From assembly GCA_009911715.1 (NCBI GenBank), contig CP047880.1, forward strand, positions 1,674,001-1,738,000: 64,000 nt of DNA. Direction: 5' to 3'. The notes under the pieces are model-generated. The model was not told the origin of the DNA, made no database searches, and was given only the letters and a program-made list of their open reading frames with translations. The position numbers and the translations under genes were made by a program. Below, piece by piece: positions 47,878 through 50,162 of the stretch (the first letter of the stretch is position 1; each line of letters opens with the position of its first letter). This DNA comes from Methanomassiliicoccaceae archaeon DOK. Lineage in GTDB: Archaea; Thermoplasmatota; Thermoplasmata; Methanomassiliicoccales; Methanomethylophilaceae.

Positions 47878-49422
47878 TCAGTCCCTCCCGAGCATCGCAT
47901 CCATGTCGGCGTCGACGTCCGAGATCGGATGGATGTCGTAGTTGTCCACCAGGACCTTCAGCACACCCGGGGATACGAACGCCGGCAGGGAGGGGCCGAG
48001 GTAGATGCCCCTCACACCGAGGTACAGTAGGGTCAGCAGGATGCAGACGGCCTTCTGCTCGTACCAGGAGAGCACCATGGAGAGCGGCAGGTCGTTGACA
48101 CCGCACCCGAACGCGTCGGCAAGGGCCAGAGCGACTTTGATGGCGCCATAGGCGTCGTTGCACTGCCCCATGTCCAGGAGCCTGGGTATGCCGCCGATGT
48201 CCCCGAGGTCCAGGTCGTTGAAGCGGAACTTGCCGCATGCGAGCATGAGCACCACGGAGTCCGAGGGCGTCTTCTCCACGAACTCCCTGAAGTAGCTCCT
48301 CCCGGGCTTCGCCCCGTCGCATCCGCCCACCAGGAAGAAGTGGCTGATGGCGCCGGACCTGACGCCTTCCACGATGGCCTCCGCGTTGGACAGGACGGCC
48401 TCCCTCCCGAATCCCGTGGTGTACTCCACTGTGCCGGCACGGTCCTCCGAGAACCCTCCGAGGGACAACGCCCTGTCGATCAGCGGAGTGAAGTCCCCGT
48501 CGTCTATGTGGACCGTCCCGGGGTAGCGGACGGGGCCCGAGGTGAAAACATTGCCCTTGTAGCCGTCCTTCGGAGGCATGAGGCAGTTGGTCGTGAAGAG
48601 CACGGGAACGTCGATCCCGTCGAACTCGGACCTCTGGTTCTGCCAGGCGGTGCCGTAATGCCCTTTGAGATGGCCGAACTTGGACAGCTAGGGGTAGGCA
48701 TGGGCCGGCAGCATCTCACCGTGTGTGTAGATGGAGATCCCCTTGCCCTCGGTCTGCTCGAGGAGGGCCTTCAGGTCCCCGAGGTCGTGGCCCGTGACTA
48801 TGATCGCCGGACCCTTCCCGATGTCGGTGGAGACCTTCACGGGCGACGGCACACCGAACGCCTCGCGGTTGGCCTCGTCCAGCATCTCCATGCATCTCAG
48901 GTTGGACTTCCCGACCTCCAGGACCATAGCCAGAAGCTCGTCCGACCCCGCGTCGGACCCGACGGCCCTCAGCCCACGGTACATCGTGTCGACGACCTCT
49001 CCGTCCGTCCTGCCCAGGACCGCCGCGTGGTATGCGTATGCCGCCATACCGCGTATCCCGAACAGGATCAGCGACTTCAGCGAACGGACGTCCTCCTGCG
49101 CATTCCAGACGGATCCCATGTCGTACGCGGGAACTCCGCCCGAGAGGGCGACGATCTCTGAGATCTGGTCTCTGATGTCTTCGGCGTCGAAGTCGACATT
49201 GGTCAATGTGGCGAACAGCGCCTTCATGACGGCGAAGTCGGCATCCCCGCCGAGCCCTTCGAGAGCCGGCGACGACGCGAGTCCCACGAGAGCGCCCGTG
49301 AGCTCGTCCTGGAGCGCCGCGACCTCGCTGGTCTTGCCGCAGACTCCGCTCCTCCCCTTGCAGCCGGCGCCTCCCGCCGTCTGCTCGCACTGGAAACAGA
49401 ACATAGGTATCTCGGATTCCAT
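47878..49422 (-). CDS. hcp: Hybrid-cluster protein with an in-frame UAG codon (candidate pyrrolysine protein)
   Basis: A 514-residue Hcp if the TAG at 48688-48690 (codon 245) is read as an amino acid. Cys9, Cys12, Cys21 and Cys28 bind the [4Fe-4S] cubane. The hybrid-cluster ligands are His212 and Glu236 before the TAG, and Cys280 (TTNCLMPP), Cys368 (GGCDG), Cys396 (LACGKF), Cys421 (GQCND), Glu455 and Lys457 (WYEQK) after it. All spacings are as in canonical Hcp and nothing is frameshifted. Hcp reduces hydroxylamine and, as now viewed, nitric oxide. The ATG at 49422 has a GGAG 8 nt upstream. A divergent Crp/Fnr gene faces it. If UAG stops translation, only a cluster-less 244-residue fragment is made. 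Confidence 0.85.
48688..48690 (-). other. In-frame UAG (amber) codon of hcp
   Basis: It is CTA on the plus strand. The context is AHAYP-UAG-LSKFGH, where Hcp relatives carry an ordinary residue (often Glu, Lys or Ala) in a helix nine residues after the Glu236 ligand. The frame continues open for 269 codons. Confidence 0.9.
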
Positions 49423-49465
49423 GAGTTCAACTCCACGAATCATCGTGTGCTTCCTCATCTGAATG

Positions 49466-49505: not shown

Positions 49506-50162
49506 ATGAGAGGCAGGAGTCAGATCCTCAGGAACACGGGGCTGTTCGAGGGAATAGAGGACGGTGAGATGGAGACCATGCTGAAGTGCCTCGGCGCGTT
49601 CACCCGCAGATACGCCAAGGACGAGTTCCTATTCCGTCGCGGGGACCGCACAGAATGCCTCGGCGTGGTACTCGCAGGGAACGTGAGAGTCGTACGCGAG
49701 GACTGGTGGGGGAACAGGACGGTTCTCGGCGATGTAGGCGCGGGGATGCCGATCTGCACCGAGTACGCCTGCACCTCCGACCCTCTGGACGTCAGCATCG
49801 TCGCGAGCGAGCCCACAGAGGTCATGTTCCTCGATGTGGGAAGGGCGGCGAACGTCTGCAACTCCTCGTGCGAGTTCCACAACCGCCTGGTCAAGAACCT
49901 GATGAGGAACCTCGCCGGGACGTCCATGGTGATGAACCGCCGCCTGGACCAGCTGGCTAAGAGGTCCACCAGGGAGAAGATCTGCGCATTCCTATCGGAT
50001 CAGGCTAGAGCGGCCGGATCCAGCGACTTCATGATCGGCATGAACCGCCAGGAGATGGCCGACTACCTGGGTGTCGACAGGAGCGCCATGTCCACCGAAC
50101 TGGGGAAGATGCAGCGCGAGGGCATCATAGAGTTCCAGAAGAACCACTTCGTGCTGAAATGA
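49506..50162 (+). CDS. Crp/Fnr family transcriptional regulator (HcpR-like by context)
   Basis: A 218-residue regulator with an N-terminal cyclic-nucleotide-type beta-roll (about residues 10-125) and a C-terminal winged helix (about 150-215, with RQEMADYLGVDRSAMSTE as recognition region). No Fnr-type N-terminal iron-sulfur Cys cluster is seen; internal Cys residues (EYACTS and NVCNSSCE) are not in that layout, so the signal could be haem, nitrosative stress or a nucleotide. It is divergent from hcp, a pairing common for nitrosative-stress regulators such as HcpR. Control of hcp is inferred from position and the palindrome. Confidence 0.88.
   Translation: MRGRSQILRNTGLFEGIEDGEMETMLKCLGAFTRRYAKDEFLFRRGDRTECLGVVLAGNVRVVREDWWGNRTVLGDVGAGMPICTEYACTSDPLDVSIVASEPTEVMFLDVGRAANVCNSSCEFHNRLVKNLMRNLAGTSMVMNRRLDQLAKRSTREKICAFLSDQARAAGSSDFMIGMNRQEMADYLGVDRSAMSTELGKMQREGIIEFQKNHFVLK

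Follow-up and report, generated by a model that had tools for sequence, protein, structure and literature searches.

The window, the whole 64,000-nucleotide stretch of DNA that was analysed, carries on its minus strand a gene for a hybrid cluster protein (hcp) with an in-frame TAG near its middle, and beside it a divergently oriented regulator gene. The features of the locus are as follows.

47878-49422, minus strand: hcp, hybrid cluster protein/hydroxylamine reductase, matched by full-length Prismane and hydroxylamine reductase models
48688-48690, minus strand: in-frame UAG, codon 245 of hcp
48691-49422, minus strand: upstream half of hcp, with the four cubane cysteines, His212 and Glu236, under purifying selection
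47878-48687, minus strand: downstream half of hcp, with Cys280, Cys368, Cys396, Cys421, Glu455, Lys457 and the TGA end
49506-50162, plus strand: Crp/Fnr-type regulator (cNMP-binding and Crp helix-turn-helix), divergent from hcp

The hcp frame starts with ATG at 49422 (MESEIPMFCFQCEQ...) and closes with TGA at 47878, giving 515 codons including the stop and a product of 514 aa if the UAG is read as a residue. A second in-frame ATG lies upstream at 49458, and the UAG becomes residue 257 when counted from there. The plus strand reads cagctagggg at about 48685-48694, which places the TAG at 48690-48688 of the minus strand. The initial annotation had described a TAG at codon 245 of a 515-codon frame with neither a second stop nor a frameshift, and re-reading of the sequence agreed: the TAG is the sole internal stop and no frameshift was present. 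Coding potential is high on either side of the TAG and is restored at the very next codon. The gene is present as a single copy in the complete genome.

When read through the UAG, Hcp matched the Pfam Prismane model end to end (E 8e-149) and scored 697 and 637 bits against the NCBIfam hydroxylamine reductase equivalogs NF003658 and TIGR01703, whose cut-offs are 367 and 361 bits, respectively. All ligands of the hybrid cluster (one His, two Glu, four Cys and one Lys) were present with conserved spacing. His212, Glu236, Cys368, Cys396, Cys421, Glu455 and Lys457 were identical in 129/129 other rows of the Hcp alignment, one of which repeats the gene of the window itself, and Cys280 was conserved in 128 of these 129. 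The N-terminal four-cysteine motif was found at Cys 21, 24, 33 and 40 (numbering of window protein P0001), the first three of which were conserved in every alignment row covering them. This alignment agrees with the earlier claim that the ligands are intact in both halves at canonical spacing. The ligands, the cysteine motif and the full-length family model place the predicted product in the Hcp family, with a predicted activity as a hydroxylamine/NO reductase.

The hcp locus was syntenic with that of the nearest relative, including the divergent regulator, and the pairing of regulator and hcp was also kept in L056, L008, L009 and L057. Judged by its position, the Crp/Fnr-type protein encoded at 49506-50162 is probably the regulator of hcp. 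The downstream half of hcp was 86% identical to the orthologue of the nearest relative, and the neighbouring genes were 82-92% identical. In pairwise comparisons with the five nearest relatives, dN fell well short of dS before as well as after the UAG, and pN/pS was lower downstream (0.15-0.30) than upstream (0.32-0.38). In each half, the distance to the outgroup was about the same as that of the sister species. That both halves are under selection, as had been suggested from the first reading, is thus borne out by dN below dS on either side, an orthologue-like rate and synteny; the UAG of hcp is internal, with selected coding sequence both before and after it.

The chromosome to which the window belongs is a complete single contig of 1.889 Mb (99.8% complete). 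The search for pyl genes that the initial annotation had proposed recovered pylS, pylB, pylC, pylD and a tRNA-Pyl(CUA). Scores with the NCBIfam models were 270 bits for pylS, 440 for pylB, 315 for pylC and 204 for pylD (cut-offs of 178, 348, 248 and 150 bits), and the four genes lie side by side. At 1.27 Mb the order is mtbB and two mtmB-like genes, followed by pylS, pylB, pylC and pylD. An in-frame UAG was found in mtbB (TIGR02368, 701 bits) and in both mtmB-like genes, the latter being named from position and sequence, as the NCBIfam models gave no match. The tRNA lies at the head of the pyl genes.

L036:8689-8757, just before pylS: tRNA-Pyl, cloverleaf fold with CUA anticodon

Its variable loop is 3 nt long and its anticodon stem is imperfect; ARAGORN did not detect this tRNA before pylS. 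An imperfect anticodon stem of tRNA-Pyl has been described for Methanomassiliicoccales (PMC3941956), and 15 further genomes of the genus have the anticodon arm as well, mostly near pylS. The genome possesses what pyrrolysine decoding calls for, namely pylS, pylB, pylC, pylD, an amber tRNA-Pyl and UAG-bearing methylamine methyltransferases.

The stop codon of pylB itself (L036:9611-10666; G000:C1:1271610-1272665) is TAG. Across the genus, TAG ends 8 of 29 copies of pylB and TGA the remainder. Reading through this TAG would append 19-24 residues and run into pylC, and the stop may be a recurrent feedback point. A TAG stop in pylB is known from M. mazei, M. acetivorans and M. burtonii (PMC2933860).

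Internal UAGs were surveyed in 843 kb of sampled stretches, which amount to 45% of the ~1.89 Mb chromosome; in the coding-score scan, the many antisense or low-scoring TAG pairs were kept only where a family model supported them. Eleven of 550 strong coding segments in these 843 kb stopped at TAG, and they comprised four true ends, including pylB, and seven in which coding continued. TAG made up less than 1% of true stops, being the genuine end of 4 out of about 540 strong genes in this sample. Seven non-methyltransferase genes besides hcp had an internal UAG and family support in this sample.

L154:16932-17714: tRNA pseudouridine synthase TruA, internal UAG at codon 95
L254:16272-16871: sulfopyruvate decarboxylase beta-like (comE, coenzyme M synthesis), UAG at codon 69; best model match, just under cut-off
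L145:1385-3175: ABC exporter, one internal UAG
L255:1927-3231: CynX-type MFS transporter, one internal UAG
L152:16145-16675: PH-domain membrane protein, one internal UAG
L256:10639-11277: GNAT acetyltransferase, one internal UAG
L260:17347-17946: winged-helix regulator, one internal UAG; weak family match

TruA is a single-copy gene, and the closest relative has GAG at the UAG site; another species of the genus (G083) has a TruA UAG of its own at a different site, 154 (L175). Counting hcp, eight UAG genes in 45% of the genome extrapolate to roughly 18 genome-wide. The same sample held at least seven UAG-interrupted genes besides hcp versus one likely gene interrupted by TGA and none recognised with TAA. 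Weighted by mutational opportunity, this contrast is suggestive only, because UAG has more one-step codons. Near the UAG-bearing GNAT gene, a HipA-like frame broken by TGA (L256:9430-9918) is perhaps a true pseudogene. A UAG in a redox enzyme had initially been considered unexpected. This view is not supported, since unrelated genes of the same genome share internal UAGs, and lists of such in-frame UAGs in relatives date back to 2014 (PMC4153887, PMC5011839).

Codon 245 encodes Glu (GAG or GAA, mostly GAG) in 17 of 17 close archaeal relatives, and a single base change converts GAG to TAG. Across the Hcp family the site is occupied by Glu (79), Lys (17), Ala (14), Leu (5), Gly (5), Phe (3), Arg (2), Val (2) and Gln (1). 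The site is therefore less free within the close archaeal clade than across the family. The entropy of the UAG columns, averaged over the four sites tested, fell at the 71st percentile; as the overall test reached only P about 0.07 and the close-relative column of Hcp is itself invariant Glu, this result was given no weight. In the 108 genomes of the order that gave a match, no other UAG inside hcp was flagged, and only the species of the window has one. Five candidates from the order-wide search (G081, G037, G046, G114 and G015) were rejected, as the TAG in each hcp frame lay upstream of the start codon. The absence of UAG from the other hcp genes found in the order is what would be expected of a recent single-base change from GAG to TAG. 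The proposed check for recurrence thus turned up Glu in the close relatives instead of a second UAG, and the suggestion that the residue may be more than a passive replacement is not supported, given that many residues, including Lys, occur at site 245 family-wide and that the UAG is private.

The pyl system, the UAG-bearing methyltransferases, the single hcp and its functional-looking halves together make read-through as pyrrolysine the best reading, in keeping with the original proposal of a candidate pyrrolysine-containing Hcp. We assign a probability of about 0.82 to a full-length Hcp with pyrrolysine at 245 as a passive residue. According to this reading, a G-to-T change in one Methanomassiliicoccales lineage would have converted hcp GAG (Glu245) to TAG. 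Pyrrolysine would be made by PylB, PylC and PylD, and PylS would charge tRNA-Pyl(CUA) for insertion at the UAG. The ribosome would then continue past the UAG to complete a 514-residue Hcp, in which pyrrolysine 245 would have no special part in the chemistry and would be a substitution that the enzyme tolerates, at a position open to replacement. Pyrrolysine insertion into Hcp, the efficiency of insertion and the activity of the enzyme are predicted here from genome-wide evidence.

Alternatively, hcp may be a recently dead gene, in which translation stops at the UAG to leave a useless 244-residue fragment, with too little time so far for the downstream half to have decayed. The UAG is private to the species and so might be young, and no PYLIS match was found within 100 nt after the UAG of hcp, nor was any unusual fold found after it. 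However, PYLIS is reported not to be required for insertion (PMC8211752); in the same genome PYLIS_2 at mtbB scored above threshold and PYLIS_1 at mtmB below threshold. Amino-acid changes private to the window lineage exceeded those of its sisters in both Hcp halves by a crude count, which is biased by tree shape, but the outgroup distances do not bear out this excess. Hcp, TruA and the ABC exporter have all kept the evolutionary pace of their orthologues, and the 515-codon frame has no second lesion. Moreover, internal UAGs are carried by the methyltransferases and by single-copy housekeeping-type genes such as TruA, in which termination would be equally damaging. We consider the death of hcp unlikely. 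A restart of translation producing a separate second half (ORF 47878-48603) was set aside: a codon of the start type first recurs some 28 codons past the UAG, as a GTG, and the restarted half would be without the cubane cysteines, His212 and Glu236.

It has also to be considered that pyrrolysine 245 matters to the enzyme, either by tuning the active site near Glu236 or because UAG decoding couples the level of Hcp to the supply of pyrrolysine (methylamine). The site is only nine residues from the Glu236 ligand and is always Glu in the close archaeal relatives, and UAG decoding competes with termination in principle. However, conservation of the UAG among hcp orthologues, as functional need would predict, was not seen in any other hcp found in the order. 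Homologues use Ala, Lys, Leu, Gly, Phe or still other residues at this site, with Ala in the Desulfovibrio and Methanothermococcus enzymes whose structures are solved, and unrelated genes of the same genome have the same UAG pattern. A functional role of the residue is accordingly rated as improbable, even more so than a dead gene. The least probable explanation is a sequencing or assembly error, to which a change of one single base lends itself, but which fits poorly with a single-contig, 99.8% complete genome and, suggestively, with the surplus of UAG-interrupted over TGA- and TAA-interrupted genes in the sample.

The preferred reading, a passive pyrrolysine at 245, has parallels in known systems. 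In the methyltransferases MtmB, MtbB and MttB, as in hcp, decoding of the UAG as pyrrolysine presumably relies on one and the same tRNA and synthetase. The methyltransferases, however, use the residue in catalysis and keep the UAG from species to species, whereas the UAG of hcp is confined to one species and its residue can be replaced. Another parallel is offered by Thg1 (tRNA-His guanylyltransferase) of Methanosarcina acetivorans, in which an in-frame amber codon is read as pyrrolysine that is not essential for activity (PMC2933860). In both cases the amber codon is limited to a single species and interrupts a gene that has nothing to do with the use of methylamines. Thg1 is a different protein from another methanogen order, and pyrrolysine has been physically detected in it, while in Hcp it is deduced. 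The tolerance of the site across the family and the restriction of the UAG to one species are what a tolerated change would leave, as in Thg1.

Within the same order, 'Ca. Methanomethylophilus alvus' has 16 predicted pyrrolysine proteins, with TAG as 1.6% of stops (PMC4153887), and in ISO4-H5 in-frame amber codons occur in 46 genes (PMC5011839). Both resemble the genome of the window in that TAG stops are rare, UAGs are scattered in unrelated genes and orthologues are without UAG, and the 16 of M. alvus is close to the scaled figure of ~18. Efficient UAG suppression by tRNA-Pyl is held to make a new in-frame amber codon a stable mutation (PMC4153887). Hcp is absent from the M. alvus table and from the genes named in the ISO4-H5 text (PMC4153887, PMC5011839). 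A literature search combining pyrrolysine with hybrid cluster protein gave nothing, and one with hydroxylamine reductase gave passing mentions only; Hcp may therefore be unreported so far as a pyrrolysine protein. Some archaea have reportedly been argued in later work to read every TAG as pyrrolysine, in which case the novelty would be lower still.

The UAG of hcp seems to be an accident tolerated by a gut-type methanogen that is largely past using UAG as a stop, and not a new use of pyrrolysine; a new chemical role for this residue is not demonstrated by the hcp case. The proteins that seemingly depend on pyrrolysine decoding gain a single-copy metalloenzyme, a tRNA-modifying enzyme and a coenzyme M biosynthesis-like gene. 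This supports the view that UAG is drifting from a stop to an ordinary sense codon in such methanogens. With such a drift, the cells would need their pyl genes even when no methylamines are present, and standard annotation would truncate good genes.
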